A stretch of 55,094 bases of DNA, taken from contig JAFAXX010000031.1 of the NCBI GenBank assembly GCA_019240655.1, forward strand, positions 1 to 55,094, in the 5' to 3' direction. The first letter of the stretch is position 1. The number at the start of each line of letters is the position of its first letter. The translations under genes and the position numbers were made by a program. This DNA comes from Solirubrobacterales bacterium (lineage in GTDB: Bacteria > Actinomycetota > Thermoleophilia > Solirubrobacterales > Solirubrobacteraceae). This document shows, in pieces, positions 3,229-43,186 of the stretch. The notes below the pieces were generated by a model that did not search any database, was not told the origin of the DNA, and was given only the letters and a program-made list of their open reading frames with translations.

Positions 3229-3231
3229 AGG

Positions 3232-7082: not shown

Positions 7083-8747
7083 ATGCCAGCAGCCACGGCA
7101 AGACGACAGAGCCGGACCAAGATTCACGACAAGATCCAGGAGCTTTCGTGGAATCCGACGTTCGCGACGCCTGTCGACAAGTATCCGACGGACTACACCT
7201 TCGAGAAGGCGCCCAAGAAGGACCCGATGAAGCAGGTCCTGCGCTCCTACTTCCCGATGGAGGAGGAGAAGGACCAGCGCGTGTTTGGGGCGATGGACGG
7301 CGCCGTCCGCGGGAACATGTTCCGTCACGTCCAGCAGCGCTGGATGGAATGGCAGAAGCTGTTCTTAAGCATCATCCCGTTCCCGGAGATCTCGGCCGCG
7401 CGCGCGATGCCGCTCGCGATCAACGCGGTGCCAAACCCCGAGGTCCACAACGGGCTAGCGGTTCAGATGATCGATGAGGTACGCCACTCGACGATCCAGA
7501 TGAACCTTAAGCGGCTGTACATGAACCACTACATCGACCCGGCCGGATTCGACATCACCGAGAAGGCGTTCTCGAACTGCTACGCCGGGACGATCGGCCG
7601 TCAGTTCGGGGAGGGATTCATCACCGGTGACGCGATCACAGCGGCCGACATCTACCTGACGATCGTCGCGGAGACCGCGTTCACCAACACCCTGTTTGTA
7701 GCGATGCCTTCGGAGGCGGCAGCGAACGGCGACTACCTGCTGCCGACCGTGTTCCACTCCGTCCAATCGGATGAATCGCGGCACATCTCCAACGGCTACT
7801 CGATCATCCTGATGGCGCTCGCCGACGAGCGCAACCGTGAGCTGCTGGCGCGCGACCTGCGCTACGCGTGGTGGAACAACCACGCGGTCGTGGACGCGGC
7901 GATTGGGACGTTCATCGAGTACGGCACCAAGGACCGCCGCAAGGACCGCGAGAGCTACGCCGAGGCGTGGCGTCGCTGGATCTACGACGACTACTACCGC
8001 AGCTACCTGATGCCGCTCGAGAAGTACGGCCTCGAAGTGCCGCACGATCTGGTCGAGGAGGCCTGGAACCGCATCTGGAACAAGGGCTACATCCACGAGG
8101 TCGCGCAGTTCTTCGCCACCGGTTGGCCCGTCAACTACTGGCGGATCGACCCGATGACCGACGAGGACTTCGAGTGGTTCGAGCACAAGTATCCGGGCTG
8201 GTATGACAAGTACGGCAAGTGGTGGGAGAACTACAGCCGGCTGCGGCACCCCAACGGGCACGGCCCGATCGCGTTTGAGGACGTCAACTACCAGTACCCG
8301 CATCGCTGCTGGACTTGCATGGTTCCGTGCCTGATTCGCGAGGACCTGGTGGTCGACAAGGTCGACGATCAGTGGCGGACCTACTGCTCGGAGACCTGCC
8401 GGTGGACCGACAAGGTCGCGTTCCGACCCGAGTACAAGGGCCGCGACACCCCGTCGATGGGTCGCCTGACCGGCAAGCGCGAGTGGGAGACCCTCTACCA
8501 CAACTGGGATCTGGCGGACATTCAGAAGGATCTCGGTTACGTGCGCGACGACGGCAAGACGTTGATCCCGCAGCCGCACATGGATCTAGATGATCCGAAG
8601 AAGTTGTGGACGCTCGACGACTGCAAGGGATATCCGTTCCCGAGCCCGAACATCATGCTCAACGAGATGTCCGACCAGGAGCGCGAGGAGTTCGCCACCC
8701 AATACAAGGCGGGCGGCCCGGGCGGCCGCTACGCAGGGCGCGCATAG
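7083..8747 (+). CDS. prmA: Propane monooxygenase hydroxylase alpha subunit (soluble diiron)
   Basis: A 554-residue catalytic subunit of a soluble diiron monooxygenase, which inserts oxygen into short alkanes. The diiron ligands are visible with the spacing of the MmoX/PrmA families: Glu102 (PFPEISAA), Glu132 and His135 (IDEVRHS), Glu197 (VAETAF), Glu231 and His234 (SDESRHI). The C-terminal half carries CWTCMVPC and YCSETC. Overall it looks like PrmA of Gordonia/Rhodococcus (propane 2-monooxygenase, group 5), and length is close to that family (about 540-550). GGGAGGGAG precedes the ATG. It is the first gene of prmABCD-groEL. Substrate range (propane, methane or others) cannot be read from sequence alone. 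Confidence 0.95.
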   Translation: MPAATARRQSRTKIHDKIQELSWNPTFATPVDKYPTDYTFEKAPKKDPMKQVLRSYFPMEEEKDQRVFGAMDGAVRGNMFRHVQQRWMEWQKLFLSIIPFPEISAARAMPLAINAVPNPEVHNGLAVQMIDEVRHSTIQMNLKRLYMNHYIDPAGFDITEKAFSNCYAGTIGRQFGEGFITGDAITAADIYLTIVAETAFTNTLFVAMPSEAAANGDYLLPTVFHSVQSDESRHISNGYSIILMALADERNRELLARDLRYAWWNNHAVVDAAIGTFIEYGTKDRRKDRESYAEAWRRWIYDDYYRSYLMPLEKYGLEVPHDLVEEAWNRIWNKGYIHEVAQFFATGWPVNYWRIDPMTDEDFEWFEHKYPGWYDKYGKWWENYSRLRHPNGHGPIAFEDVNYQYPHRCWTCMVPCLIREDLVVDKVDDQWRTYCSETCRWTDKVAFRPEYKGRDTPSMGRLTGKREWETLYHNWDLADIQKDLGYVRDDGKTLIPQPHMDLDDPKKLWTLDDCKGYPFPSPNIMLNEMSDQEREEFATQYKAGGPGGRYAGRA

Positions 8748-8783
8748 CCCGATACGCCAGACGGAGCCTCGGGCGATGCAAGC

Positions 8784-8813
8784 AAGTGACCGCCGCCAAC
8801 GCGGCGGTCACTT
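8784..8813 (+). other. Strong intercistronic hairpin between prmA and prmB
   Basis: A perfect 13-base stem (AAGTGACCGCCGC pairing with GCGGCGGTCACTT) with loop CAAC lies in the 97-base gap between prmA and prmB. No U tract follows, so it is more likely an mRNA-stabilising or partial-termination element that keeps prmA message in excess over the reductase. Confidence 0.6.
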
Positions 8814-8844
8814 CGCCCGCGAGCGAACGGGCTGAGGAGGCGGC

Positions 8845-9903
8845 ATGGCCCAGCGGCACACTGTCACGTTCGAGCCGGTCGACATCGAGATCGAGGTCTC
8901 CGAGGACGAAACGATCCTCGAGGGCGCGTTTCGGCAGGGGATCATGCTCGCGCACGGGTGCAAGGAGGGGCAGTGCTCGGCGTGCAAGTCGTTTCTGATC
9001 GAGGGCGAGGTCGATCTCGAGCGCTATTCGACGTTCGCGCTTGCCGACTACGAGCAGGAGGAGGGCTACACGCTTCTGTGCCGGGCCCACGCCTTTTCCG
9101 ACCTTGTGGTCGAGCTCCTCCACTACGACGAGGAGATGCTGACCTCGGGCGTACCGATCCGGGCGCTCAAGACGAAGGTCGACACCATCGAGCCTCTGAC
9201 CCACGACATCTACAAGCTGAGCCTGACGCTCGAGGGCGAGGAGCCGCTCGAGTTCCACGCCGGCCAGTACGTCGATATCGCAATTCCCGGAAGCGACAGC
9301 AGCCGCTCGTTCTCGATGTCCAACACGCCGTCGGTTGCCGATCGGCTCGAGTTCATGATCAAGATCTACCCGGAGGGACGGTTCTCGCGCCTGCTCAAGG
9401 ACGAGCTGGTGCCGGGTCAGGAGCTTCACGTGAAGGGGCCCTACGGCGTCTTCATCCTGCGCGAGCACTCCGACGCCGACCTGATCTTCATCGGTGGGGG
9501 CGCCGGGATGGCGCCGATCTGGTCACTGCTCAACTCGATGGCCGAGCGCGGGATCGAACGCAAGGTCACCTACTACTACGGTGCGCGCACGCGTAAGGAC
9601 CTGTTCCACATCGATCAACTGCAATATTTGTCCGACCGCCTGTCGGGCTTTCGTTTCGTCCCGGCCCTATCGGAGCCGGCACCCGACGAGGACTGGGACG
9701 GAGAGGTCGGCCTGATCACCGACGTGGTCGATCGTCTCGAGGGCGATCTTAGCGGCCGCGAGGCGTACCTATGCGGGCCGCCGCCGATGATCGACGCCTC
9801 GATCCCGATGCTCGGCGCCCACGGGATCCCCGAGGCCCGAATCTTCTACGACAAGTTCACCGTCACTGCCAGCGAGGAGGAGCAAGAACGCGCACGAGCT
9901 TGA
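8845..9903 (+). CDS. prmB: Propane monooxygenase NADH reductase (2Fe-2S/FAD)
   Basis: A 352-residue reductase that passes electrons from NADH through FAD and a 2Fe-2S cluster to the hydroxylase. The N-terminal plant-type ferredoxin domain has Cys39, Cys44, Cys47 and Cys79 (CKEGQCSACK...LLC). The flavin motif is RSFSMSN and the NAD motif is GGGAGMAPI, followed by CGPPPMID near the C-terminus. This domain order is that of MmoC/PrmB. A GAGGAGG-type ribosome site precedes the ATG. It lies downstream of prmA behind a hairpin and 89 bases before prmC. Confidence 0.94.
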   Translation: MAQRHTVTFEPVDIEIEVSEDETILEGAFRQGIMLAHGCKEGQCSACKSFLIEGEVDLERYSTFALADYEQEEGYTLLCRAHAFSDLVVELLHYDEEMLTSGVPIRALKTKVDTIEPLTHDIYKLSLTLEGEEPLEFHAGQYVDIAIPGSDSSRSFSMSNTPSVADRLEFMIKIYPEGRFSRLLKDELVPGQELHVKGPYGVFILREHSDADLIFIGGGAGMAPIWSLLNSMAERGIERKVTYYYGARTRKDLFHIDQLQYLSDRLSGFRFVPALSEPAPDEDWDGEVGLITDVVDRLEGDLSGREAYLCGPPPMIDASIPMLGAHGIPEARIFYDKFTVTASEEEQERARA

Positions 9904-9992
9904 GCGACGTGCGAGAAGAGCAAGGTCACCGGCCCGCGGCCCCGCCGCAAGGCGGAGCCAGGCCACGGAATGAGAAGAAAGGAGGACGTCAC

Positions 9993-11129
9993 GTGGCTGA
10001 CACCTTGAGTCCCGCGCAGACGCCCACGCAGACACCGACGGGGCGAGTACGGAGCGTCCCGAGACTCGTGTTCACGGACGCCGAGGCCGGCGCTCTGGAG
10101 TTCCCCAGCTCGAACAGCCGCTCGTTCAACTACTTCAAGCCGCAGCGGTTGAAAGCGACGATGTACGAGGACGTGACCGTCGATGTCCAGCCGGACCCGG
10201 CACGCTACCTCACCCAGAACTGGGTGTACGGTTTCGCCAAGGCTCCGGGCGGATATCCCACCGAGTGGACGGCAGCGAAGTCCTCCGACTGGCACTGGTT
10301 CCGCGATCCCAACCAGGAGTGGGAGCAGACCATCTACAAGAACAATGCCCGCCTGGTGCGCCAGGTCGAGCAGAACATCGCCAACGCCCGCAACGAGGGC
10401 GCATTCGAGCGGTGGTCGCCGGGGTGGTCGCGGATCGTCGCGTGGCACGTCGGCGCATGGATGCACCCAGAGCACGGCCTCGGGATGCATGTCTTTCTGC
10501 CCGCGCAGCGGGACGCTCCGACGAACATGATCAACAACGCGATCTCGGTCAACTCGATGCACAAGCTGCGGATCGCGCAGGACTTGGCGCTGTTCAACCT
10601 CGAGGCGAGCGAGGCCCGCTCGGACTTCGACGGCAAGGCTCACCTGGAGGCCTGGAACGATGATCCCGTGTGGCAGCCGGTGCGCGAGAACGCCGAGAAG
10701 CTGACCGCGATTCGCGACTGGTTGGAGGCGGTCGTCGCGGCGAACCTCGCGTTCGAGCCGCTCGTCGGCGAGCTGTTCCGAGGGGGCTATGTGATGGCGA
10801 CGGCAGCGGCGAACGGAGACTTCGTCACGCCGTCGATCATGGGCGTCGCCGAGAGCGACCTCGAGCGCGACCTCGGCTACACAAAAGATCTGATCGGAGG
10901 GCTGACGAGCGATCAGGAGCACGGCCGGCAGAACATCGAGCTGGTCGGTGAGTGGCTGTCACGGTGGATTCCGGAAAGCCTGGCGGCGGCGCGATCGCTG
11001 GCGCCGGTCTTCTCGGAGGCGGAAAACTCGCCGGTGACATTCGAGGACACGTTGTCGCGCGCCCGCGAGCGCGTGCGCGCGATTCTCGGTGAGCTCGAGA
11101 TCCCGACACCGAAGGAGCTTGATCAATGA
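9993..11129 (+). CDS. prmC: Propane monooxygenase hydroxylase beta subunit
   Basis: A 378-residue non-catalytic partner of PrmA; it has the ferritin-like fold of the family but no complete diiron ligand set. The GTG start follows GGAGG by seven bases, and the protein then begins [27 protein letters not shown], matching the usual N-terminus of PrmC/MimC. The internal segments [17 protein letters not shown] and [10 protein letters not shown] are characteristic of the small hydroxylase subunit. Its stop overlaps the ATG of prmD by four bases, giving translational coupling. Confidence 0.93.
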
Positions 11130-11479
11130 CGAATTCGCCTTTGGAGTTCCACCGCGAGTCCTCGCACCGGTGCGGTGTGACCCTGATGGACAACCAGGTG
11201 GGACACGCCGTCGCCGCCGCCATGCAAGGCAAGCCCGGCGTCACCGTCACCCAGCTCCCGTCGATGATCCGGGTCGACGCCGATCGCCGCGTCGAGTTCG
11301 ACTTTGATGAACTGACGGAAGCGGTCGGCGAGGAATTCGACCAGAACGCGTTCGAAGAGATCATGTCGACCCACTACGGGCGAATGGTCGCGCTCGATGA
11401 TCGGATGATTCTGTTCTCGGACCCCGAGGACGCTGCCGAGTACCTCGGCTTCGACCTCAAACCGGTGTCGGTAAGCTAG
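11126..11479 (+). CDS. prmD: Propane monooxygenase coupling (effector) protein
   Basis: A 117-residue cofactor-free regulatory protein of the MmoB/DmpM family. It binds the hydroxylase and tunes oxygen activation and coupling. [21 protein letters not shown] and [23 protein letters not shown] are typical of the family, and length is in its normal range (about 100-140). It overlaps prmC by four bases and is followed by a hairpin and then groEL. Confidence 0.92.
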
Positions 11480-11621: not shown

Positions 11622-13289
<1,668 letters not shown>

Positions 13290-13324: not shown

Positions 13325-14167
13325 TCAGAATAGACCCTCGAACGCTGGAGTGCGGCTCTCGCCGCGCAGCGCGGTGGAGATCTGGGTGGCAGCCTGGCGG
13401 GTGAGGCGGATCATTCGCTTGAGCTCGTCCGCGGGGCTGGTAGCGGTCGTCGCGAGGCCAACCGCGCCAGCAACCGTGCCGCTCTCGTAGCTCACGGGCA
13501 CGGCAACGCAGTAGAGGTTGTTGGCGAACTCCTCGAAGTCCGTGGCGTAGCCACGCGTTCTCACCTCCTTGAGGTGAGCCTCCAGCTTCGTCGCGTCGGT
13601 GATCGTACGTCGAGTGAACGCCCGCAGCTCATGCCGCTCGATGTAGCGGTTGATCGCTGCGCTGCCACCGGCGGCGATCAGCACTTTGCCGAGCGCGAGC
13701 GCGTGCGAAGGGCCGGTGAAGCCCTGGGACACGCCGACCGGCGGGCAATCGGGCGGGGAGTAGACGTGAGTCACTACGACGTCGTCAGTCCCCGACAGGA
13801 CGGCGTAGTACGCCGTACGGTCCGCGAGCCGCGCGAGGTCGTGCAGGACCGGCTCGACGACCGCGGCGCTCCCCGACCTCCGGGAGCGCTCGAACAACAC
13901 GCCGACCGTCGCGCCGAGCCGGTACCCGGCGTGGTGGGGGAGCTTCTCGATATAGCCTTCGTCGAGCAGGATCCCGACCAGGTGATAGCAGGTGGACACG
14001 CTGATCCCGAGGTCATGGGCGAGCGCCTTGACCGTCAATCGCTCGCCCCCAGTGCTCACCCGGTCGATGATGCGAAAGACCCGCCGAGTGCTCGCGTAGC
14101 TCCGATGACTGGCGCCCGCGAGCTCGCCGAACAGCGCGTCGCCGTCGCCGGTCGCCGGGGTCACCAT
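13325..14167 (-). CDS. IclR-family transcriptional regulator
   Basis: A 280-residue regulator with an N-terminal winged helix (YASTRRVFRIIDRVSTGGERLTVKALAHDLGISVSTCYHLVGILLDEGYIEK, residues ~24-75 in outline) and a C-terminal IclR effector domain (RGYATDFEEFANNLYCVAVPV; VAGAVGLATT). It faces the prm operon, converging on groEL with 35 bases between the stops. Position makes it the best local candidate for controlling prmABCD or the adjacent MFS transporter. The effector is unknown. Confidence 0.88.
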   Translation of the reverse strand: MVTPATGDGDALFGELAGASHRSYASTRRVFRIIDRVSTGGERLTVKALAHDLGISVSTCYHLVGILLDEGYIEKLPHHAGYRLGATVGVLFERSRRSGSAAVVEPVLHDLARLADRTAYYAVLSGTDDVVVTHVYSPPDCPPVGVSQGFTGPSHALALGKVLIAAGGSAAINRYIERHELRAFTRRTITDATKLEAHLKEVRTRGYATDFEEFANNLYCVAVPVSYESGTVAGAVGLATTATSPADELKRMIRLTRQAATQISTALRGESRTPAFEGLF

Positions 14168-14348
14168 TGCTGCACCCGGCTTGCGCGCCCGATCGGCCTG
14201 TGCGCGGTATCAGGCGAGCGTGAGCGGGTCATTTGAATCGCGACGGCGCGATCCGTTGCCGACGATGGGGCAAGTCATTCCTCTGCGGGAGTCGCTGCTG
14301 GCAGAAGTCTAAGCGCTCGGGAGCATTGGGGAAGGTCGGTCAAGGTGG

Positions 14349-14520
14349 GTGGGCTCGGGTGTACGCGCCCGCCAAACGCTGCCGCGTCAGCGCGATGTCG
14401 GCAGTGGCATCAACGACACATTTCGCCAGGGCGGCATTCCGCTCGGCGTGGCCTGCTACGGGGCTCTCGTTCGGCGGGCGCCGCCCAGCGACATCGAGCG
14501 GTCGGCGGCACACGTCGAGG
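14349..14520 (+). pseudogene. Decayed 3' fragment of a DHA2-type (EmrB-like) MFS transporter
   Basis: Within the 553-base stretch between the IclR gene and the next permease, one frame reads VGSGINDTFRQGGIPLGVACYGALV (about 14394-14470). This matches the well-known SGxNNTFRQxGxxxGxAxxG helix of DHA2 drug exporters. Upstream and downstream text in the frame is not membrane-like and there is no plausible start, so only a worn remnant is left. The rest of 14168-14720 shows no gene I can support, apart from the promoter region of the following MFS gene. Confidence 0.55.
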
Positions 14521-14720
14521 GCTCGAGCACGGCGCCGGCAGCCTTGCCGGGCTCAACCCGTCCTGGCAACAGCGCCTGTCGACCTGGGTGGATTCAAAGC
14601 CGGACGCTGAGGTGTCGCTCGCCCTGATGGTCACCCCCCGTTTCACGGCCGATCATCGGGTTTTCCCCCGGACGCCCTCGGGTACGACCCCGCGGAATAC
14701 CAGAAAAGGGCGGGTCGCAG

Positions 14721-16199: not shown

Positions 16200-16593
16200 C
16201 CGGCGCCGGCCGAGCGGTCCCGCGAGTCCCCGGCGGCGCCATTTCCGGTTCCCAGAAAGCTTCAACGATGTAACCGTCCGGATCTCGGCACTTGACGCTG
16301 ACATAGTCGGGCCCATCCCACTCCTCGACCAGCTCGATGCGATCGGCGACCAACCGCTCGCGCAGGCGCAGAACGGCCTCACGACAGGGCAGGCCGACGC
16401 CGAAGTGCATCCACGACGGACGGTGGATGGGCTCCGTCTCCGGGCCCAAAGCGAGAGCGAAGCCGGCCGCGTTGTAAAGCATCAGGACGCCGTCGTCGTA
16501 GCGCCTGGCCGGCCGTGACCCGAACCCGAAGTAGGTCTCGTAGAAACCGCGCGAGCGTGTCTGGTCCCGTACCGGAATCGCCAGGTGGTCCAT
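16159..16593 (-). CDS. VOC-superfamily (glyoxalase/dioxygenase fold) protein
   Basis: A protein of about 144 residues with a single VOC domain: MDHLAIPVRDQTRSRGFYETYFGF at the start, a mid-domain His (WMHFGVGL), and CRDPDGYIVEAFWEPE carrying the C-terminal Glu. His, His and Glu positions suit a divalent metal site. I chose the ATG at 16593; a TTG at 16605 would add four residues. The last 30 residues are Pro/Arg-rich because the gene runs into the MFS stop on the other strand. The reaction is unknown. Confidence 0.78.
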   Translation of the reverse strand: MDHLAIPVRDQTRSRGFYETYFGFGSRPARRYDDGVLMLYNAAGFALALGPETEPIHRPSWMHFGVGLPCREAVLRLRERLVADRIELVEEWDGPDYVSVKCRDPDGYIVEAFWEPEMAPPGTRGTARPAPVRARLPRSGGRGS

Positions 16594-16657
16594 CCCAGCG
16601 ATCAAGGTAACGGACAGTGACAGGATGCCGCTATGACGCCCCGGTCAAGTTACCGTA

Positions 16658-26632: not shown

Positions 26633-26641
26633 CAGGGCATC

Positions 26642-27361: not shown

Positions 27362-27428
27362 CCCTCACGAGGGCCGCCTCGACCTCACACCGTGACCCTC
27401 ACAACGGCCGCCTCGGCCACGCCGTGAC
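27335..27428. repeat. 34-base tandem repeat across two convergent stop codons
   Basis: Two near-identical 34-base units at 27335-27368 and 27369-27402 begin GAGGGCCGCCTCG and differ at one base. A third degenerate unit runs from 27403 to about 27428. The repeat includes the last codons and stop of the HisA-like gene and the last codons of the ATP-grasp gene on the other strand, so local duplication produced the present 3' ends. Confidence 0.8.
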
Positions 27429-34948: not shown

Positions 34949-35814
34949 GGCAGCGTCACTCCGCTGAGCAGCGCGGCGAGAAGGGTCGCGGCCACGAGGT
35001 CGGCGCTCGTCCCCGGATTCAGCCGGTGATCGCAGCCGCGCAGCGAAGCGTCGAAGTCCGCCAGGGAGCGGGTCCCGTCCCGCACCTCGCGAGCGGCCCG
35101 GGTCACCGCGAGCGCCGCCTCGGGGCCCGCCTTGCGTGCGATCAGCGTGTCGGGGTGTGACGCCAGCAGGCCGACGTGCAGTGACACGATCGCGTCGAGC
35201 GTCGCAACCCCGTCGCCCAGCGCGCCGACGAGCAACGGGAGCGCGGTCCCGAACACGATCGCGTAACCGGTCACATACTCCGAGGCGATGCTGTCGCGGT
35301 GCGCCGCGGCGGCCATCGCCTCGCGCAGCGTGACGCGGGCCGGGGCGCGGACGTCGTGCTCGGGCGCGTCTCCGAGCCCGCCGGGACCCGCCCGGGCGAT
35401 CGCCGCAAACGCTGCAGCGGCATCGTCGACGTCGAGCTGTGCAAGCGTCCGCTCCATCGCCGCGCGCAGCCCTTCGCCGGCTCGCCGGGTCACGGCGGCA
35501 CGGGCCAGCGGCGCGAACAGGAGCACGATCCCCAGGTTGGTGTTGGTGGGGGCGACGCGCGCGGTCGCTCGCACCCCGTCGGCGATCAGCTCCCCGACGC
35601 GCCGCCGGCGAACCCGCCGGCGCGCGAACACGGGGCCGAGCGCGAGCGCCGAGCGCACCATGTCGGCATACGTCGTGTCGGCAAAGTCTCGGCCCGGCGT
35701 GATGTTGCCGGGCTTGGGCGCCGCCACCTCGAGCAGGCACGCGAGCTGGACATCGTGCGCCAGTAAGTCACGGGTCAGTCGCGAGTGAGCTAGGGTTGCG
35801 CTCACCCGCGTCAC
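34945..35814 (-). CDS. CitG/MdcB-like (triphosphoribosyl-dephospho-CoA synthase family) protein
   Basis: A 289-residue all-helical protein of the CitG family: ACLLEVAAPKPGNITPGRDFADTTYADMV near residue 26, APTNTNLGIVLLFAPLARA, DALDAIVSLH-type and SADLVAATLLAALL. True CitG makes the prosthetic group of citrate lyase, but no citrate or malonate decarboxylase genes are here; relatives occur in bacterial H4MPT clusters and probably transfer a ribosyl-phosphate unit in cofactor synthesis. It is the first gene of the leftward operon ending at 27399, and its GTG lies 23 bases from fae on the other strand. Confidence 0.83.
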   Translation of the reverse strand: MTRVSATLAHSRLTRDLLAHDVQLACLLEVAAPKPGNITPGRDFADTTYADMVRSALALGPVFARRRVRRRRVGELIADGVRATARVAPTNTNLGIVLLFAPLARAAVTRRAGEGLRAAMERTLAQLDVDDAAAAFAAIARAGPGGLGDAPEHDVRAPARVTLREAMAAAAHRDSIASEYVTGYAIVFGTALPLLVGALGDGVATLDAIVSLHVGLLASHPDTLIARKAGPEAALAVTRAAREVRDGTRSLADFDASLRGCDHRLNPGTSADLVAATLLAALLSGVTLP

Positions 35815-35837: not shown

Positions 35838-36350
35838 ATGGCCGTCATCCTGTCAACCGGAGAGGCGCTCACCGGCGATGGCAACGAGCTGGCGCACATC
35901 GACCTGCTGATCGGTTCCAAGAGCGGACCGGTCGGCGAGGCGTTCGCCCATGCCTTCGTCAACGAGAAGGAGGGTCACACCAACCTGCTGGCGGTGGTGA
36001 CCCCCAACCTTCCGGCCAAGCCGGACACCGTGATCACCAACAAGGTCACGATCAGGGGCGAGAAGCAAGCTGTGCAGCTGTTCGGGCCGGCTCAGGCCGC
36101 GGTCGCGCGCGCGGTGGTGGACTCGGTGGCCGACGGCGTGATCCCCAAGGACCAGGTCGACGACCTGTGCCTCGTCGTGGGCGTGTTCATCCACTGGGAG
36201 GCCGCGGACGACAAGAAGATCTACGACTACAACTACGAGGCCGTGAAGATGTCGATCGCGCGGGCGCTGGGCGGTGAGCCGACCATGGACAAGGTGCTGG
36301 CCGAAACGCCCAACGCGCGTCACCCGTTCGCCAGCGGCGCCGAGGGCTAG
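35838..36350 (+). CDS. fae: Formaldehyde-activating enzyme
   Basis: A 170-residue enzyme that condenses formaldehyde with H4MPT to methylene-H4MPT and so detoxifies it. The catalytic His lies in GNELAHIDLLIG near residue 19; VTPNLPAKPDTVITNKVTI, LFGPAQAAVARAV and DDKKIYDYNYEAVK are hallmarks. GAGGAGGGAG precedes the ATG. It opens the rightward operon fae-SDR-DHPS-like-mtdB. Confidence 0.96.
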   Translation: MAVILSTGEALTGDGNELAHIDLLIGSKSGPVGEAFAHAFVNEKEGHTNLLAVVTPNLPAKPDTVITNKVTIRGEKQAVQLFGPAQAAVARAVVDSVADGVIPKDQVDDLCLVVGVFIHWEAADDKKIYDYNYEAVKMSIARALGGEPTMDKVLAETPNARHPFASGAEG

Positions 36351-36373: not shown

Positions 36374-37132
36374 ATTGCGCAGACCGGAGAGCCGCCGCTC
36401 GCCGGTCTGCGCACGGTCGTCACCGGCGCCAGCTCGGGGATCGGGAGCGCGATCGCCGCCGCCTTTGCCGGCGCCGGGGCTCGCGTCGGCATCGGCTTCT
36501 GGCGCTCGTCCGACGCCGCCCGCAAGCTGGCGGCCGAGCTCGGAGACGGCCACTGCGTACTGCAGGCGAACCTGAGCACGCCCGACGGCTGCAGCTCGAT
36601 CGTGCGGCAGGCCTTCGAGGCGCTCGGGGACGTTGAGGTGTGGGTCAACAACGCCGGCGCCGACGTGCTCACCGGTGAGGCTGCCCGGTGGCCGGCCGAG
36701 CGTAAGCTCGACGCGCTGCTGGAGCTCGACCTCAAGGCGACGATTCGCTGCTCGCGGCTGGTCGCAGCCCGGATGCGCCCCGGCGGCTGCATCCTCAACC
36801 TCGGCTGGGATCACGCCACGCTCGACGGGATGGCGGGCGAGAACCCCGAGCTGTTCGCCGCCGTCAAGGCCGGAGTGCTCGGCTTCTCGAAGTCGTTCGC
36901 GCGCTCGGTCGCGCCGCAGGTGCGAGTCAACGTTCTCTGCCCGGGGTGGATCGAGACCGCCTTCGGCGCCGGCGCGGACCGCGACTTCTACGCCGAGGTC
37001 GAGGCGCAGACGCCGCTTCGCCGCTGGGGCCGGCCGGAGGACGTGGCCGGCGCCGCCGTGTGGCTGGCCTCGCCGGCCGCCGCCTTCATCACCGGACAGG
37101 CGGTCAACCTCAACGGCGGGACCGTTGGCTGA
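36374..37132 (+). CDS. SDR oxidoreductase in the fae operon, non-canonical start
   Basis: An SDR of about 252 residues. The cofactor loop is VVTGASSGIGSAIAAAFAGAGARV, then VWVNNAGADVL, and PGWIETAFG and FITGQAVNLNGGT near the end. The expected YxxxK Tyr region reads NPELFAAVKAG, so the catalytic Tyr appears replaced by Phe while Lys is kept. No ATG, GTG or TTG exists in frame upstream of the conserved core (a stop is at 36275); ATT at 36374 is taken as start, CTG at 36407 is an alternative. It overlaps the next gene by eight bases. A pterin reductase role is possible in view of context. Confidence 0.75.
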   Translation: MAQTGEPPLAGLRTVVTGASSGIGSAIAAAFAGAGARVGIGFWRSSDAARKLAAELGDGHCVLQANLSTPDGCSSIVRQAFEALGDVEVWVNNAGADVLTGEAARWPAERKLDALLELDLKATIRCSRLVAARMRPGGCILNLGWDHATLDGMAGENPELFAAVKAGVLGFSKSFARSVAPQVRVNVLCPGWIETAFGAGADRDFYAEVEAQTPLRRWGRPEDVAGAAVWLASPAAAFITGQAVNLNGGTVG

Positions 37133-38474
37133 CACGCTGTTCCTCACCGGCCGCCTGGCCGCGCCCGCGCTCCGCGGTGTGCTCTCCGATCTCGGCATCG
37201 ACCACCAGATCGTCGTGATGAACATCAGCGTCGCCGCGCTGATGACCACGCGCTGGATCGCCAGGCGGCTGGACGTCCCGCCGGGGGTGGACAACATCGT
37301 GATACCGGGGCTGTGCGAGGGCGAGGTCGATGTGCTCCAACAGGCCACCGGGCTGCCGGTGCGCAAGGGCCCGGCCGACGTCCGCGCGCTGCCCGAGTGG
37401 TACGGGCGCGAGGCCGTCCGCGCCCAGCTCGGCCCCCGTGACGTCCGCGTGTTCGCCGAGATCAACCAGGTGCCGTCGCTGCCCCGCGAGCAGGTCATCA
37501 ACCTGGCCGAGGCCTATCGCGCGGCCGGAGCCGACGTGATCGACCTCGGCCTGTCCCTCGATCGCTCGTGGCTCTCCGAGGGGCCGCCGACGATCGCCAC
37601 GCTGCGCGAGCGCGGGCTATCGCTCAGCATCGACACGCTCGACCCCGAGCACATTCGCATGGCCGACGCCGCCGGCGTGGACTACGTGCTGAGCCTGACG
37701 CCGGAGACGATCGACCTGGCCGAGGGGCTGCGGGCCACGCCGGTGCTGATCACCGAGGACCCGGACGACCTCGACGGTCTCGACCGCATGGCCGCCCGCA
37801 TGGAGCAGCTGCGGCGCCCGTACCTGCTCGACTCGATCCTGGCTCCGATCAACTCCGGCTTCGCCGCGTCCCTGGCCCGCTACGTCGAGGTCCGCCGGCG
37901 CCACCCCGAGGCGGAGATCCTGATGGGAATCGGCAACCTGACCGAGCTCACCGAGGCCGACTCGACGGGCGTGACCGCGCTCCTCATCGGCTTCTGCCAG
38001 GAGGTCGGGATCGGCGCGGTGCTGACCACCGAGGTGATCGGATGGGCGCACGGCGTGGTGCGCGAGACCGTGCTCGCCGCGCAGATAATGCACCTGGCGC
38101 AGCGCCAGGCGCGCCCCCCCAAGCACATCGACTCGGGGCTGCTCACGAGCAAGGACGAGACGATGCGCGCGCCCTCGGAGGCCGAGCTGCGCGCGATGCA
38201 GGCGCAGATCAACGACGCGAACTATCGCCTGTTCGCCGACGCCGACTGGCTCTACGCGTTCAACGGCGAGCGGTTCGTACGCGGCGCCAGCCTCTACGCC
38301 GTGTTCGAACAGCTCGATGTGGACGACGCCTCGCACGCCTTCTATCTCGGCAAGGAGCTGATGAAGGCGACGATCGCGCGCGGCCTGCGCAAGAGTTACC
38401 GCCAGGAGGGACCCCTGGACTGGGGTCTACTCAGCTTCCCAGAACCGCGACGGGAGGACGCCACCCGACGATGA
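37125..38474 (+). CDS. Dihydropteroate-synthase-like protein of H4MPT clusters
   Basis: A 449-residue protein whose middle part resembles the pterin-binding barrel of dihydropteroate synthase (AAGADVIDLGLSLDRS, LSIDTLDPEHIRMADAAGVDYVLSL). The flanks, GRLAAPALRGVLSDLGIDHQIVVMNISVAALMTTRWIARRL and the C-terminal DADWLYAFNGERFVRG, are typical of the methanopterin-linked type. It probably joins the pterin to the arylamine made by MptG. TTG start overlapping the SDR gene; four-base overlap with mtdB. Confidence 0.88.
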   Translation: MADTLFLTGRLAAPALRGVLSDLGIDHQIVVMNISVAALMTTRWIARRLDVPPGVDNIVIPGLCEGEVDVLQQATGLPVRKGPADVRALPEWYGREAVRAQLGPRDVRVFAEINQVPSLPREQVINLAEAYRAAGADVIDLGLSLDRSWLSEGPPTIATLRERGLSLSIDTLDPEHIRMADAAGVDYVLSLTPETIDLAEGLRATPVLITEDPDDLDGLDRMAARMEQLRRPYLLDSILAPINSGFAASLARYVEVRRRHPEAEILMGIGNLTELTEADSTGVTALLIGFCQEVGIGAVLTTEVIGWAHGVVRETVLAAQIMHLAQRQARPPKHIDSGLLTSKDETMRAPSEAELRAMQAQINDANYRLFADADWLYAFNGERFVRGASLYAVFEQLDVDDASHAFYLGKELMKATIARGLRKSYRQEGPLDWGLLSFPEPRREDATRR

Positions 38475-39334
38475 AGAAGATCCTGATCCAGCTCGACACC
38501 GATCCGCATCCCAGCTCGTTCGACGCGATCGCCGCCTACGACGCCGGCGTCGACGTCGTGCTCGCCTTCGGCGAGGTCACCGCCGAGAACCTCGAGGGGG
38601 TCGTCCAGGGGGCGATCTTCCCGCGCGGTCCCGATGGCCTCGCCAACACCGCCTTCTGGGTCGGCGGCTCCAAGGTGCGCGACGGCGAGGCCGTGTTCGC
38701 CGCGGCGCGGAAGCTGTTCTTCGAACCGTTCCAGCCCTCGATCATGCTCGACTCCGACGGCTCGAACACGACCGCAGCGGCCGCCGTGGCGCGGGTCCGG
38801 GGCGCGACGAAGCTGAAGGACGGCCGGGCGGCGGTGATCGGCGTCGGGCCGGTCGGGCTGCGCACCGCCGAGCTGCTGCGGCGCGAGGGCGCCGAAGTCA
38901 CGCTGCTCACCTTCCCGCCCGACGTGATGGAGGGCAAGCATCGCCGCGCCTCGGGCATCGACGTCGCCCGCGAGGCGGGCTTCGAGGTCGTCGAGCCGTC
39001 GTCCAGCGACGAGCTCGACGCCGCGCTGGCCGGCCACGCGGCGGTGTTCGCCGCGGGCCCGGCGGGCACGCAGATCCTCCGCCGCAGCGGCTGGGCCGGG
39101 GCCGAGGGGGTGAAGGTGGTCGTCGACTACTCGGCGGCCGAGCCGGTCGGCGTCGAGGGTGTCGACCGCACCGACAACCTCGAGGAGGAGAACGGCGTCA
39201 GCAAACTCGGCGCGCTGGCCGTGGGCGGTCCCAAGATGAAGCTCCAGAAGCGCTGCGTCGAGCGGATGTTCGAGGACAAGGGGACGGTGATGGACCTCGA
39301 GGGCGTCTACGCGGTCGCCCTCGAGGCGCTGTGA
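38471..39334 (+). CDS. mtdB: NAD(P)-dependent methylene-H4MPT dehydrogenase
   Basis: A 287-residue dehydrogenase that oxidises methylene-H4MPT to methenyl-H4MPT. KKILIQLDTDPHPSSFDAIAAYDAGVD opens it, the nucleotide motif is AVIGVGPVGLRTAELLRREGAEVTL near residue 125, and MLDSDGSNTTAAAAV and KLGALAVGGPKMKLQKR are family signatures. The NAD versus NADP choice is not clear from sequence. It is followed at once by a large inverted repeat. Confidence 0.94.
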   Translation: MKKILIQLDTDPHPSSFDAIAAYDAGVDVVLAFGEVTAENLEGVVQGAIFPRGPDGLANTAFWVGGSKVRDGEAVFAAARKLFFEPFQPSIMLDSDGSNTTAAAAVARVRGATKLKDGRAAVIGVGPVGLRTAELLRREGAEVTLLTFPPDVMEGKHRRASGIDVAREAGFEVVEPSSSDELDAALAGHAAVFAAGPAGTQILRRSGWAGAEGVKVVVDYSAAEPVGVEGVDRTDNLEEENGVSKLGALAVGGPKMKLQKRCVERMFEDKGTVMDLEGVYAVALEAL

Positions 39335-39431: not shown

Positions 39432-39809
39432 TCAGGCGCGGGCGCCCTCGCGCGGCTTCGAGAAGACGAACTTGCCCATCGGCCCGTCGAGCGGGCTGTC
39501 GTCCTCGGGCCGCCACAGCACGGTGTCCTCGATCCGGCGCGCCAGCGTGAAGTCCTTGTCGGTGATGCCGCCGGCCGAGTGCGTGGCCAGCTTCACCCAC
39601 AGCTTGCCCCAGGTGACATTCAGGTCGGCGTGATGGCCGGCGGCCTCGCACAGGTAACCGATCAGGTTGACAGCCATCAGGGTCGAGGGCCAGCCGTCGG
39701 TGTTGTACTTGCGCCGGATCCAGTCGCCCTCGTGGTACCACTCGCCGAGGCCGAGCTCGGACAGCTTGGCGGGGATCTCCTCCTCGGTGTACGTGCGCTC
39801 TTTGCTCAT
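39432..39809 (-). CDS. Pterin-4a-carbinolamine dehydratase family protein
   Basis: A 125-residue PCD/DCoH-fold protein: the central active-site block is EAAGHHADLNVTWGKLWVKLATHSAGGITDKDFTLA, with the His-His and later His of the family. The classical reaction is dehydration of 4a-hydroxytetrahydrobiopterin. No aromatic amino acid hydroxylase is nearby and the gene sits in a methanopterin cluster, so a role in pterin handling for H4MPT is likely. ATG start 11 bases from the divergent DUF1464 gene. Confidence 0.88.
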   Translation of the reverse strand: MSKERTYTEEEIPAKLSELGLGEWYHEGDWIRRKYNTDGWPSTLMAVNLIGYLCEAAGHHADLNVTWGKLWVKLATHSAGGITDKDFTLARRIEDTVLWRPEDDSPLDGPMGKFVFSKPREGARA

Positions 39810-39820
39810 GGCGCAATCAT

Positions 39821-40891
39821 ATGCCCCGAGTAGCCGGTCTCGACCCGGGAACGGTCTCGTTCGACCTGTGCGTCCTGCGCGACGGCGAGCCGGTCCTCGA
39901 GCGGGTCTTCGACACCGGCCTGCTGCGTGAGGACAGCGGGCCGCTGCTCGAGACGCTGGCGCGCCACGGGCCTTACGACCTCCTCTACGGCCCGAGCGGC
40001 TACGGCCTGCCGCTCGTCGCGGCCGCCGACGTCGGCGAGCGGGAGCTGGCCGAGATGGTGCTCGTGCGCCCCGATCAGGCTCACGCCGACACCGGCGTGG
40101 GCGGGATGCGCTCGCTGCTGCGGGCGCTTGCGCGCAGCGGCCTGCCGGTCGTCTTCGGCCCCGGCGTGATCCACCTGCCCTCGGTCCCGCGCCACCGCAA
40201 GTACAACCGGATCGATCTCGGGACCGCCGACAAGGTGTGTGCGGCGGCGTACGCGATCGCCGATCAGTCGGCGCGGCGGGCGATCGCGCCGGGCCAGACG
40301 GCGATGGTGCTGCTCGAGCTCGGAGGTGCGTTCACGGCGGCGGTGGCGATCGCCGAAGGGCAGATCGTCGACGGCGTGGGCGGGTCCTCGGGACCGCTCG
40401 GCGTGCGCGCGGCCGGCGCACTGGACGGCGAGCTCGCCTACCTGCTCGGGCCGGCGCTGCGCAAGGAGACGCTGTTCACCGGGGGGGCGCTCGATCCGGG
40501 CGGCGCCCTGCAGGTCTCCGACCTCCGGGCGCTGTGGTCGGCCCCGGCGCACGCCGACGGTTGGACCGCGCTGCTCGAGGCGGCGGCCAAGGCGGTGCGA
40601 GCGCTGACCGTGAGCGTGCCGGCCCCGCACGAGATCGTCGTCTCGGGCCGACTCGCCCGCGTGCCTCAGGTGGTCGCCGCGCTGGCCGCGGCGCTCGAGG
40701 ACCTCGCCCCGGTGATCGCACTCGTGCCCGGCCGGGCGAGCGCGGCCGCCCACGGCGGCGCGCTGCTGGCCGACGCGCTGGCCGGCGGCCGGCACGCGGT
40801 CCTGGCCGAGATTCTGAAGCTGCGGGAGTCCAGCGGCACCGCGCTCGACCATCTCCGCGTGGCCGGCAGCGACTCGATCGTGCTGGGCTGA
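39821..40891 (+). CDS. DUF1464 ASKHA-fold protein
   Basis: A 356-residue protein of the DUF1464 family with an actin/hydantoinase-like fold: VAGLDPGTVSFDLCVL at the start, LLYGPSGYGLPLV, VLLELGGAFTAAVAIAEGQIVDGVGGSSGPLG, and VVSGRLARVP near residue 270. The family is shared by archaea and bacteria with H4MPT and is presumed to act in methanofuran or methanopterin formation. No reaction is known. It is the last C1 gene before the XoxF unit. Confidence 0.82.
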   Translation: MPRVAGLDPGTVSFDLCVLRDGEPVLERVFDTGLLREDSGPLLETLARHGPYDLLYGPSGYGLPLVAAADVGERELAEMVLVRPDQAHADTGVGGMRSLLRALARSGLPVVFGPGVIHLPSVPRHRKYNRIDLGTADKVCAAAYAIADQSARRAIAPGQTAMVLLELGGAFTAAVAIAEGQIVDGVGGSSGPLGVRAAGALDGELAYLLGPALRKETLFTGGALDPGGALQVSDLRALWSAPAHADGWTALLEAAAKAVRALTVSVPAPHEIVVSGRLARVPQVVAALAAALEDLAPVIALVPGRASAAAHGGALLADALAGGRHAVLAEILKLRESSGTALDHLRVAGSDSIVLG

Positions 40892-40984: not shown

Positions 40985-41017
40985 TTTTGCCCGTTTTCCG
41001 GATGGAAGGAGAGAGCC

Positions 41018-41455
41018 TTGAGCAGTGAGATGCCGGAGCTGGACAAGCAGAATGGGACGACGCTAGGTCGGCTGCTCGGCCGCGGAAGCGTCGGGCATGC
41101 CGAGGAGGAGTCAGGCGGGCGCATGCGCGCCACGATCCGGATCCCGGTGGACGAGCTGGTGTTCGAGCCGAGGGTGCTCGTCCTACCCCACGGGGGCGAC
41201 CTCGAGCTCGAGCTGATCAACGATGACATGAACACTCACTGCGCGGTCCTGCCGAGCAACGGCGACAGCCAGTTCATCTGGCTGGTGAACCACTCACGCG
41301 GAAAGGCTCATCTCAACCTCGACGGCCCGGGCTACTACTGGTACGCGTCGCGAACGGGCAACGATGAAGGCCGCGGCCTGACCGGCGCGATCGTCGTCTC
41401 GGGCGAGGTCCCGGACGAGGCCAAGCTCGACCGCCCGCCCCAGCCCCGCCCGTAG
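41018..41455 (+). CDS. Cupredoxin-like protein without signal peptide
   Basis: A 145-residue protein whose second half looks like a cupredoxin domain: LVLPHGGDLELELINDDMNTHCAVLP, then GPGYYWYASRTGNDEGRGLTGAIVV. One His ligand position (NTHCAVLP) is present, but the usual Cys-x-x-His-x-x-x-Met loop is replaced by YYWYASRTGND, so a normal type 1 copper site is doubtful. The TTG start follows AAGGAGAG; upstream the frame closes at 40979 with no ATG, so no export signal is encoded. It is 33 bases before, and in the same frame as, the XoxF-like gene, suggesting a partner or electron acceptor for it. Confidence 0.7.
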   Translation: MSSEMPELDKQNGTTLGRLLGRGSVGHAEEESGGRMRATIRIPVDELVFEPRVLVLPHGGDLELELINDDMNTHCAVLPSNGDSQFIWLVNHSRGKAHLNLDGPGYYWYASRTGNDEGRGLTGAIVVSGEVPDEAKLDRPPQPRP

Positions 41456-41488
41456 GCGAGACCCAGCGACCGTCGAAAGGAGCAGTTG

Positions 41489-43186
41489 ATGGCAACTGAA
41501 ACCGAATACGTCGACGCCGGCACTGCCGTCGGCCAGCAGACCCTGAGCGCCGTCGTCGGGCGGGCACCGGCGGTGACCAAGGGGGTGAACTACGAACGAA
41601 TCCTCAAGGCCCGCTCGGAGCCGCACAACTGGCTGACTTACTACGGCGCCTACGACGGACAGCGCTATAGCCCGCTGGACCAGATCAACACCAGCAACGT
41701 CAACCGCCTGACTCCGGCGTGGATCTTCCAGTGCGGCTCGATGGGCATGCACTCGGGGGCGTCGACGTACTCGTTCGAGGCCGCGCCGATCGTCGTCGAC
41801 GGAGTCATGTACGTCGCCGGTTGGGACGGCTGGGTGTGGGCGCTGAACGCCGGCACCGGACAGGAGCTGTGGCGCTACAAGCACGCCTCCCCTTACGACG
41901 TGTCGCTCTGCTGCGGCAACGTTAACCGCGGGGTCGCCGTCGCCCACGGAAAGGTCTTCGTCACCACCCTGAACGCCCATGTGGTCGCGCTCGACGCCGA
42001 AACCGGCAAGGCGATCTGGGATCAGGTCTACGGCGACGTGCGAGCCGGCGAGAGCGCCACCGTCGCCCCGCTGATCGTCAAGGACATGGTCATCGTCGGG
42101 AGCTCCGGCGGCGAGTTCGGGGTGCGCGGCCACGCCGACGCCTTCAAGCTCGAGACCGGTGAGCGCGTCTGGCGCTGCTACATGGTTCCGGCCCCCGGGG
42201 AGCCGGGGTCCGATACCTGGCCGTCCGACGGCGAGGCCTGGGCGCGGGGTGGTGCGAACTGCTGGACCACCCCCACGTTCGACCCCGAGCTCAACCTCCT
42301 GTACTTCAATACAGGCAACCCGTGCCCCGACTTCGACGGGGGGGTTCGCGAGGGCGACAACCTGTACACGGACTGCGTCGTGGCGGTCGACCCCGACAAC
42401 GGGCAGATCAAGGCGCACTACCAGTACACCCCACACGACGTGTGGGATTACGACAGCACGATGGAGAACATCCTGTTCGAAATGGACGGGAAGAAGTGCT
42501 CCGGGCACTTCGACAAGAACGGGTACTTCTTCGTCCTGGATCGCACGGACTGCAGCCTGATCCGGGTGGTGCCGTTCGTCGACCGCATCACCTGGGGCGA
42601 GATCGACGCCAAGGGCAAGGTGACACCGAAGGTGTTCCCCGACAAGGAGGGTGACCCGGTTCACTTCTGGCCCGGCCCGGCCGGCGCCAAGGAATGGACG
42701 CATGCGGCGTATAGCCCGAAGACGGGACTCTTCTATTGCCCAGTGCAGGACATCGGTGCAACCGCCACCCGGCGGCGCCGGGAGTTCAAGGAGAGCATCC
42801 CCTACTGGGGCGCGGGCGTGAACGTGGACCTCGAGGACATCGCGGGCTCGATCTCCGCCTTCGATCCGGCCACGGGCGAGGAGAAGTGGCGCTGGCGCAA
42901 CGACCAGCCGATGTGCGCGTCGGTGCTCGCCACCGCGGGCGACCTGGTGTTCGCCGGCGCTCCCTCCGGGGAGTTCCGGGCGCTGAACGCCAGCACCGGC
43001 GAGCTGCTGTGGGAGTTCCAGTGCGGAAGCGGCCACCACAGCAGCCCCTCGACCTACACCATCGACGGTCGGCAGTTCATCGCCGTGCCGACCGGATGGG
43101 GGGCCTGGACCGAGGGGTTCCTTCCCGGGATGCTCGGGGCGGCGGGAGGAGCCGCGCTCATCGCCTTCGCGCTGCCCGAGAAGTAG
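41489..43186 (+). CDS. xoxF: Lanthanide-type PQQ-dependent alcohol (methanol) dehydrogenase, leaderless
   Basis: A 565-residue eight-bladed propeller quinoprotein that oxidises methanol or another primary alcohol. The vicinal disulfide is Cys141-Cys142 (SLCCGNVNRG). Metal ligands are Glu209 (SGGEFGVRG), Asn277 (TGNPC), Asp320 and the extra Asp322 of VWDYDST, the mark of lanthanide enzymes. Trp259 can stack on PQQ. XoxF proteins are normally about 600 residues with a signal peptide; here the N-terminus is MATETEYVDAGTAVGQQ and an in-frame TAG lies only 11 codons upstream, so none exists. AAAGGAG precedes the ATG. PQQ can be supplied by pqqABCDE in this window. Confidence 0.9.
   Translation: MATETEYVDAGTAVGQQTLSAVVGRAPAVTKGVNYERILKARSEPHNWLTYYGAYDGQRYSPLDQINTSNVNRLTPAWIFQCGSMGMHSGASTYSFEAAPIVVDGVMYVAGWDGWVWALNAGTGQELWRYKHASPYDVSLCCGNVNRGVAVAHGKVFVTTLNAHVVALDAETGKAIWDQVYGDVRAGESATVAPLIVKDMVIVGSSGGEFGVRGHADAFKLETGERVWRCYMVPAPGEPGSDTWPSDGEAWARGGANCWTTPTFDPELNLLYFNTGNPCPDFDGGVREGDNLYTDCVVAVDPDNGQIKAHYQYTPHDVWDYDSTMENILFEMDGKKCSGHFDKNGYFFVLDRTDCSLIRVVPFVDRITWGEIDAKGKVTPKVFPDKEGDPVHFWPGPAGAKEWTHAAYSPKTGLFYCPVQDIGATATRRRREFKESIPYWGAGVNVDLEDIAGSISAFDPATGEEKWRWRNDQPMCASVLATAGDLVFAGAPSGEFRALNASTGELLWEFQCGSGHHSSPSTYTIDGRQFIAVPTGWGAWTEGFLPGMLGAAGGAALIAFALPEK

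Follow-up and report, generated by a model that had tools for sequence, protein, structure and literature searches.

Formaldehyde oxidation linked to tetrahydromethanopterin (H4MPT) is described mainly in Proteobacteria and a few other phyla. Propane 2-monooxygenase (PrmABCD or MimABCD) is an enzyme of gaseous-alkane use that we take to be a group-5 soluble di-iron monooxygenase. Here we report on a contig of an uncultured soil bacterium of the order Solirubrobacterales (class Thermoleophilia, phylum Actinomycetota) that carries genes of both kinds. The stretch analysed (55,094 bases, contig C62 of the draft genome G000; hereafter the window) contains a propane monooxygenase (prm) cluster at about 3.2-14.2 kb. 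At about 16.7-43.8 kb follows an island with genes for pyrroloquinoline quinone (PQQ) synthesis, a PQQ-dependent alcohol dehydrogenase (PQQ-ADH) and the H4MPT pathway. The gene content and its distribution suggest, with a probability of roughly 0.78, a methanol- or formaldehyde-oxidising module standing side by side with an independent propane module.

Related systems have been reported in several phyla. According to passages of PMC8879981, Amycolatopsis methanolica and Rhodococcus erythropolis employ a mycothiol-dependent dehydrogenase for formaldehyde, and H4MPT was undetected in the former. Methylocella strains PC1 and PC4 carry both prm and H4MPT genes, and propanotrophs with a propane monooxygenase (PrMO) do not grow on methane (passages of PMC6778391). 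There are mycobacterial methanotrophs whose only methane monooxygenase is the soluble one, together with another alcohol dehydrogenase (part of PMC12542659), and Butterfield et al. found xoxF and H4MPT genes together on a Gemmatimonadetes contig (part of PMC5103831). Metagenome-assembled genomes (MAGs) of Binatota encode prmABC and methanol dehydrogenases and lack the H4MPT route; the same passages recall earlier MAG studies with methylotrophy signatures in several phyla including Actinobacteria, where H4MPT is not named (PMC8262859). Passages of PMC10994693 mention, without identifying them individually, 12 MAGs that encode the formaldehyde-binding enzyme Fae but are not among the proposed methylotrophs; Solirubrobacteraceae and Thermoleophilia MAGs came from the same soil. 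Both sets of passages weaken a claim to novelty. The terms H4MPT, tetrahydromethanopterin and PQQ do not occur in the main text of PMC12366331, and among the papers listed by our literature searches we recognised none on methylotrophy through H4MPT in Actinomycetota; an earlier sighting is possible.

The window's own MAG (4.06 Mb, 191 contigs, 91.5% complete) was compared with 60 relatives, giving a set of 61 genomes numbered G0xx; genus-level counts refer to 28 same-genus genomes, 9 Fae-positive and 19 Fae-negative. Gene calls were confirmed with NCBIfam and Pfam models, and bit scores are given against the model cut-off. Stop-to-stop frames and homologues set the boundaries of fhcC, fhcD, the mptN-like, mfnE-like and ATP-grasp genes, pqqA, pqqD, the start of pqqE, the dihydropteroate-synthase-like gene and mtdB. 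Relatedness among the genomes, and gaps in some of them, make the p-values (Fisher test) only a guide.

The original prediction had placed prmABCD-groEL, pqqABCDE, a PQQ dehydrogenase, fae, mtdB, mch, fhcABCD and cofactor genes in one locus, and all of them are present and open (Table 1). The pqqABCDE set for PQQ biosynthesis is complete, with pqqA recognised by eye and nearly identical peptides found in G009 and G018. Fae, MtdB, Mch and FhcABCD, the enzymes that oxidise formaldehyde through H4MPT, are all represented; FhcB stays under its cut-off and is 31% identical to a formylmethanofuran dehydrogenase of Azospirillum oryzae. No NCBIfam model for MtdB matched the window's mtdB, which is assigned from a Pfam domain together with one alignment, of 33% identity, to a protein annotated as NAD(P)-dependent methylene-H4MPT dehydrogenase. 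MfnB, MfnE, MfnF, MptN, the RFAP synthase, the dihydropteroate-synthase-like protein and the pterin carbinolamine dehydratase score below the NCBIfam equivalog cut-offs. By these model matches the gene set encodes a route from methanol through formaldehyde to formate, as had been proposed.

The genes of the island also occur together elsewhere. Fae is above cut-off in 10 of the 61 genomes and PqqE in 8. Within the genus, PqqE was found in 7/9 Fae-positive and 0/19 Fae-negative genomes (p = 3e-5), and PQQ-ADH shows the same counts when fragments in G010 and G023 are scored as present and one in G022 is omitted; with the latter also counted, the values are 7/9 and 1/19 (p = 0.0002). Prm does not track Fae (4/9 vs 5/19, p = 0.41). 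Pieces of the one-carbon (C1) unit recur, with their order kept, on contigs of G003, G007, G009, G010, G011, G015, G018 and G023. Contig C188 of G009 runs from the mptN-like gene through mfnF, RFAP synthase, folE and pepA to pqqE; C373 of G007 and C189 of G023 run from pcd or mtdB through DUF1464 to PQQ-ADH, with MntP next in G007. On C175 of G018 a second pqq set lies alongside that genome's PQQ-ADH, and no H4MPT genes were found in the first 40 kb of that contig. The pqq/PQQ-ADH/H4MPT island thus looks like a genuine, conserved trait.

The PQQ-ADH belongs to the methanol/ethanol PQQ dehydrogenase family. Ranked by phmmer score, its closest solved structures are 6zcv (379 bits) and 6zcw (376 bits), compared with 305, 287 and 264 bits for the XoxF structures 4mae, 6dam and 6oc5; other PQQ-ADH structures score at most 322 bits. 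In passages of PMC11845868, 6ZCW is PedH, with the metal ligands Glu199, Asn281, Asp323 and Asp325, and 4MAE is XoxF2; an extra Asp is given there as the signature of rare-earth enzymes, its place being taken by Ser or Thr in ExaA/PedE-type ethanol dehydrogenases. The motif WDYD occurs in all six PQQ-ADH proteins inspected, the window's included; the window's Asp aligns with the second Asp of 6zcv/6zcw, and 1kv9 has Thr there. To judge from this second aspartate, the enzyme is lanthanide-type. The original prediction of a XoxF-like lanthanide dehydrogenase therefore stands as to the metal type but not as to the family: XoxF proper is rejected, since PedH (by phmmer score) and an enzyme of Streptomyces sp. 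NBC_01483 (77% identity) are nearer. An N-terminal signal was not recognisable by eye in the window's enzyme.

The prm unit encodes di-iron hydroxylase subunits with a Phenol_Hydrox domain, an effector and a reductase. A scan of named genomes gave 304 PrmA relatives, and the comparisons rest on the best 80 of these, two of which are 98%-identical congeners (G003, G022) from MAGs named Solirubrobacterales, the order to which we assign the host on this ground. PrmA is 80-88% identical to those of the remaining genomes among the 80, including Gordonia, Nocardia, Williamsia, Kribbella, Amycolatopsis, Streptomyces, Conexibacter and Solirubrobacter. In a tree of 96 proteins (quick method, long branches flagged; without L034, L035, the second copies L055, L066 and L093 of G022, G003 and G014, and matches of at most 480 aa such as L028), it groups with actinobacterial PrmA in a branch of 90 rows (SH-aLRT 100). 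Six proteins of 40-47% identity fall apart from this branch, and a branch of 87 rows, lacking three proteobacterial plasmid proteins, has a support of 81. In the flanks (up to 10 kb each side) of 78 of the 80 named loci (L055 and L066 omitted as copies), groEL occurs in 66, the amidohydrolase in 69 and the Zn-dependent alcohol dehydrogenase (Zn-ADH) in 59, at 50% identity or more. None of these flanks holds the window's pqqB-E, PQQ-ADH or H4MPT genes (E <= 1e-15 over half of the gene; query set without pqqA), and the sole matches to the C1 side are two remotely related SDRs (identity 35% or lower). Given the PrmA identity and tree, an effector passing the MimD cut-off, the usual neighbours and other prm flanks free of C1 genes, the cluster is, on sequence comparison, a canonical actinobacterial propane monooxygenase cluster.

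PrmA of at least 80% identity is present in 11 of the 61 genomes, in G023 and G030 as a fragment. One PrmA type is common to G000, G003 and G022, with a 99%-identical fragment in G023; a second type, in G011, G012, G014, G017 and G024, groups with Conexibacter and Solirubrobacter in the tree. Since two types exist inside the genus, prm has probably been exchanged horizontally.

The homology of the window to the prm contigs of G003/G022 stops at 14232/14319, and that to the pqq contig of G010 begins at 16666. The MFS gene lying between is located elsewhere in G007, G018 and G022. In G003, a fragment of a group II intron maturase comes after prm and the IclR gene, where the contig ends; in G022, the 4 kb after the prm cluster lack window homologues; and G011 has its prm genes on a contig of 95.6 kb without a Fae match and its H4MPT cluster on a separate contig of 33.6 kb. 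Among the relatives examined, the adjacency of prm and C1 genes was seen in the window contig only, which was the outcome of the synteny search that the original prediction had proposed. The neighbourhood looks like a peculiarity of this single assembly.

One further observation concerns G023. Window positions 1057-6027 share 98.6% DNA identity over 4,972 bases with its contig C204 (L042), followed by an abrupt drop to 69% and 91%; its C1-side contigs are only 74-83% identical to the window. The break may reflect recombination, misbinning or a strain chimera, and because of it strains may be mixed in these MAGs.

Table 1. Annotated features of the window, with the evidence for each assignment (bit scores of model matches, followed by the cut-off where there is one).
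Feature	Position	Strand	Evidence or remark
Zn-dependent alcohol dehydrogenase of prm cluster	3232..4572	-	ADH_N + ADH_zinc_N; start of open reading frame (ORF) probably too early
Amidohydrolase-2 of prm cluster	4973..6022	-	Amidohydro_2 146.9 bits
prmA, propane 2-monooxygenase hydroxylase large subunit	7083..8747	+	Phenol_Hydrox 186.8 bits
prmB, reductase	8845..9903	+	Fer2/FAD/NAD domains
prmC, hydroxylase small subunit	9771..11129	+	Phenol_Hydrox 178.3 bits; ORF start over-extended
prmD/mimD effector	11126..11479	+	NF045941 MimD 169.7 vs 150
groEL of prm cluster	11622..13289	+	TIGR02348 718 bits
IclR-type regulator beside prm	13325..14167	-	homologue adjoins groEL in G003 and G022
Join region: spacer, MFS transporter 14721-16199 (+), glyoxalase-like ORF 16159-16605 (-)	14233..16657	.	
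HAD hydrolase, first gene of C1 side	16658..17398	+	also adjoins pqqE in G010
pqqE	17428..18534	-	TIGR02109 491.7 vs 381
pqqD	18521..18784	-	TIGR03859 81.6 vs 46
pqqC	18781..19590	-	TIGR02111 332 vs 240
pqqB	19587..20483	-	TIGR02108 366.8 vs 245
pqqA precursor peptide, 24 aa	20545..20619	-	E-V-T-x-Y core, recognised by eye
Leucyl aminopeptidase-like (pepA)	20694..22091	+	adjoins pqqB in G009, G018, G023, G007
folE, GTP cyclohydrolase I	22131..22754	+	TIGR00063 196.6 vs 181.6
DUF447 protein	22735..23322	+	DUF447 gene likewise in A. oryzae H4MPT cluster
beta-RFAP synthase family (H4MPT biosynthesis)	23319..24284	+	TIGR00144 115 vs 113.5; equivalog NF040726 133, under 328
MfnB-like, methanofuran biosynthesis	24281..25081	+	4HFCP_synth 205 bits; under NCBIfam equivalog cut-off
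MfnE-like amino-acid kinase	24985..25620	-	NF040622 61 bits, under 300; AA_kinase
MfnF-like / one_C_unchar_1	25619..26701	-	TIGR03123 308.7 vs 244; MfnF model 200.8, under 520
HisA/HisF-like	26654..27361	+	counterpart in A. oryzae cluster
RimK/MptN-like glutamate ligase	27399..28313	-	NF040720 193.7, under 350; rimK_fam 171.9 vs 143.4
mch	28313..29263	-	TIGR03120 377.5 vs 228.8
fhcC	29260..30084	-	TIGR03122 217.6 vs 130.65
fhcD	30078..30980	-	TIGR03119 375.7 vs 292.6
fhcA	30980..32629	-	TIGR03121 644 vs 392.75
fhcB, divergent	32626..33858	-	TIGR03129 185 bits, under 327.8; placed by position in fhc run
ATP-grasp ligase of H4MPT cluster	33851..34951	-	domain + A. oryzae cluster counterpart
CitG/MdcB-like	34945..35814	-	CitG 212 bits
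fae	35838..36350	+	TIGR03126 247.4 vs 118; solved Fae 1y5y 209 bits
SDR	36398..37132	+	kept after fae in relatives
Dihydropteroate-synthase-like (H4MPT biosynthesis)	37125..38474	+	TIGR00284 152 bits, under 256.65; DUF6513
mtdB	38471..39334	+	Mpt_N 91.7 bits
Pterin carbinolamine dehydratase (pcd)	39432..39809	-	NF002017 79.3 bits, cut-off 80
DUF1464	39821..40891	+	256 bits
MSMEG_3727-family PQQ-associated protein	41018..41455	+	TIGR04339 258.7 vs 75
Lanthanide-type PQQ alcohol dehydrogenase (PQQ-ADH)	41486..43186	+	TIGR03075 616 vs 480
MntP-family membrane protein	43262..43801	+	Mntp 75.7 bits

In the reading that we prefer, an independent propane unit beside a C1-oxidising island, the propane monooxygenase would hydroxylate propane to 2-propanol and the Zn-ADH would oxidise this to acetone, both substrates being those suggested by the families. 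The second unit would make PQQ, its lanthanide-type PQQ-ADH would oxidise methanol or another short alcohol, Fae would bind formaldehyde to H4MPT, and MtdB, Mch and FhcABCD would oxidise the H4MPT-bound C1 unit to formate; the unit also appears to supply a large share of the genes for making H4MPT and methanofuran. What the genes are, how far they are conserved and which of them occur together is observed; which substrate is oxidised, whether lanthanides are used, what accepts the electrons and whether methanol supports growth is what we infer from the enzymes. The island could serve energy gain, detoxification or facultative methylotrophy.

Several observations weigh against this reading. The link of Fae with PqqE and PQQ-ADH is not absolute, because G003 (87% complete) and G011 (95%) are Fae-positive with neither of the other two above its cut-off; counting full-length PQQ-ADH only, the values fall to 5/9 and 0/19 (p = 0.0013). 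G060, of the same order, has Fae and PqqE with no PQQ-ADH match above 54 bits, and G022 has a PQQ-ADH fragment with Fae not above cut-off. As the nearest solved relative of the PQQ-ADH is an ethanol dehydrogenase, methanol may not be its main substrate. For carbon assimilation, no RuBisCO match was found in the 91.5% complete G000 (G010 and G011 have one; the serine cycle was not searched), and hexulose-phosphate synthase was not above cut-off in any of 37 genomes. Some of these observations favour a rival in which the island serves detoxification only, with the H4MPT enzymes clearing formaldehyde from other substrates and the PQQ-ADH serving alcohols of C2 or longer: the nearest structure is PedH, RuBisCO has no match in G000 and hexulose-phosphate synthase none above cut-off, and H4MPT genes occur without PQQ-ADH in G003 and G011. 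PqqE and PQQ-ADH nevertheless track Fae and share its island, and we regard pure detoxification as possible but the less probable use. That the module for methanol or formaldehyde oxidation is real is likely, and this judgement overlaps with the detoxification reading.

The original prediction had further treated prm and the C1 genes as one functional locus. A single unit leading from C3 to C1, in which propane passes through 2-propanol and acetone and the C1 product is oxidised by the island, would be consistent with both sets lying on one contig and with G000, G003, G011 and G023 carrying both somewhere in the genome. Routes that cleave acetone to a C2 unit and methanol or formaldehyde would supply the connecting step. 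Prm and Fae are, however, statistically independent in the genus, and prm has other neighbours in G003, G022 and G011, so that this unit appears very unlikely; one prm-H4MPT pathway was rejected because each half has a distribution of its own and the examined relatives show no second case of the join. We likewise see little chance that the two sets are truly adjacent and cooperate in the G000 lineage, taking a gaseous alkane (propane via acetone cleavage, or methane) to formate. If they did, alkane-to-formate oxidation through a lanthanide-type PQQ dehydrogenase and H4MPT would be a combination undescribed for actinobacteria in the parts of the literature consulted. The opposite explanation is that the join is an assembly chimera and the units lie apart in the chromosome of the organism itself. 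It is favoured by the occurrence of the join in one contig only, by the GC of 0.648 in the prm part against 0.695-0.767 in pieces of the C1 part, and by the G023 contig whose identity break suggests mixed strains. Yet the window is a single uninterrupted contig in which an intact MFS gene separates the two parts, and the G023 break lies at 6.0 kb rather than at the join, with the gene order across it common to G003 and G022; we consider a chimera unlikely, if less so than cooperation of the units. The case shows how genes that adjoin on a single MAG contig can point to a pathway for which comparative genomics gives no support.

Methane oxidation by the PrmA-type enzyme, with the island taking over at methanol, had also been raised. 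The methanol-to-formate set is complete, mycobacterial methanotrophs with the soluble enzyme alone exist (part of PMC12542659), and a plasmid protein of Methylocella tundrae, 59% identical to PrmA and falling within its branch of the tree, bears the annotation 'methane monooxygenase', a database name and not the result of a test. Against this, PrmA lies among actinobacterial PrmA in identity and tree, the phylogeny that had been suggested as a check; its best methane monooxygenase match reaches 228.8 bits, compared with 1342 bits for itself, and the MmoY model gives 97 bits against a cut-off of 700. The effector passes the MimD cut-off, PrMO propanotrophs do not grow on methane (passages of PMC6778391), and no second PrmA-like match was found in G000. 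A soluble methane monooxygenase is rejected as the identity of the enzyme on sequence and tree, the nearest relatives being PrmA and not MmoX. The search for PmoA (0 of 61 genomes) is uninformative because its control was silent. Beyond membership of the monooxygenase superfamily, methane oxidation finds no support in the sequences, and a methanotroph is hardly credible.

The H4MPT route is rare in the phylum, in line with the original prediction that most actinobacterial methylotrophs use other formaldehyde routes. A survey of 399 genomes of the class gave Mch above cut-off in 13 (fragments in 3 more); in the phylum it was found in 2 of 396 genomes, both from the window's class. The H4MPT clusters of other Thermoleophilia families are 30-56% identical to the window's. 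Nine further Mch-bearing genomes of the class and G060 showed no PQQ-ADH in the stretches inspected; in G060, pqqE, D and C lie on a different contig. Two nearly complete genomes of the class, G102 (L199, L215) and G129 (L200, L216), have two Mch copies each, one in an H4MPT cluster and the other without nearby window homologues except a 31% SDR. The companion claim, that prm in known propane oxidisers is not accompanied by H4MPT genes, holds in part. In the 50 of 80 named prm-bearing genomes surveyed (L093 being congener G014 and L061 labelled Dormibacteraeota), there was no Fae as strong as the window's 247 bits, only two weak matches above cut-off (129 and 137 bits) and three below it; the claim fails outside Actinobacteria, in Methylocella and in Azospirillum lipoferum, whose plasmid AZO_p1 has a 61%-identical PrmA relative and Mch.

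Some neighbouring genes merit mention. The leucyl aminopeptidase-like gene is a possible PQQ-linked peptidase. The MSMEG_3727-like protein has a poor predicted structure (mean pLDDT 46.7), and its profile matched nothing in PDB. The MntP-family gene, which also stands beside PQQ-ADH in G007, G010, G015, G018 and on the Streptomyces megaplasmid (L231), is a candidate metal transporter for that enzyme. Just past it, at 44095-44898, lies a relative of R2-like ligand-binding oxidases, found directly beside pqqE in G007, G009, G018, G023 and G060. The SDR between fae and the dihydropteroate-synthase-like gene has its earliest in-frame ATG/GTG/TTG only at 36602, internally; its start codon may be an uncommon one, or the sequence may contain an error. 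G000 contig C187 (L198) encodes at 9881-10765 a further Fae-domain protein, divergent from fae (about 26%) and adjoining a Zn-ADH gene and, by eye, enolase-superfamily-like and IclR genes; sub-threshold Fae matches, with canonical Fae lacking, occur in G005, G014 and G022. At 49146-54388 a pyruvate:ferredoxin oxidoreductase (1306-aa ORF, 1662 bits), an unusual gene next to aerobic catabolic genes, adjoins a GltD-like NAD(P)-binding protein.

An island of PQQ, PQQ-ADH and H4MPT genes that is conserved among uncultured Solirubrobacterales would represent an additional candidate methanol sink in soil and an additional clade of lanthanide-type enzymes, and the actinobacterial mch, fae and MSMEG_3727-ADH genes could serve as markers in 13C-methanol studies.

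Compared with described systems, the prm unit shares with propane 2-monooxygenase its PrmA sequence, MimD-type effector and groEL, amidohydrolase and Zn-ADH neighbours; it differs in the IclR gene that follows and in that the PrmA of G000, G003 and G022 branches apart from that of other congeners. With PedH, a lanthanide-dependent ethanol dehydrogenase, the PQQ-ADH has in common the top structural match and the WD[YF]D metal-site motif. Plasmid NZ_CP109439.1 of Streptomyces sp. NBC_01483 holds a MSMEG_3727-like protein, the 77%-identical ADH, pqqB, C and E, and MntP in a single run; inspection by eye shows a pqqD-like frame separating pqqC from pqqE. H4MPT genes were not found within the 37.6 kb inspected, so the PQQ-ADH set is an actinobacterial module joined here to H4MPT genes. 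The Gemmatimonadetes contig likewise has a methanol dehydrogenase near genes of H4MPT biosynthesis and formaldehyde capture, but it belongs to another phylum and carries xoxF in place of an ADH nearer to PedH, a comparison made from its description in part of PMC5103831. The H4MPT cluster on A. oryzae plasmid NZ_CP054618.1 differs in gene order, and in the window PQQ genes are attached and the host is an actinomycetote; a flavoprotein, a dihydroneopterin aldolase, a second ATP-grasp protein and PabB are unmatched in the window. The other 17 of its 21 proteins match at 31-57% identity, and the two clusters share Fae, MtdB, Mch, FhcABCD, DUF447 and DUF6513 as well as MfnB/E/F-like, CitG-like, RimK and ATP-grasp proteins.

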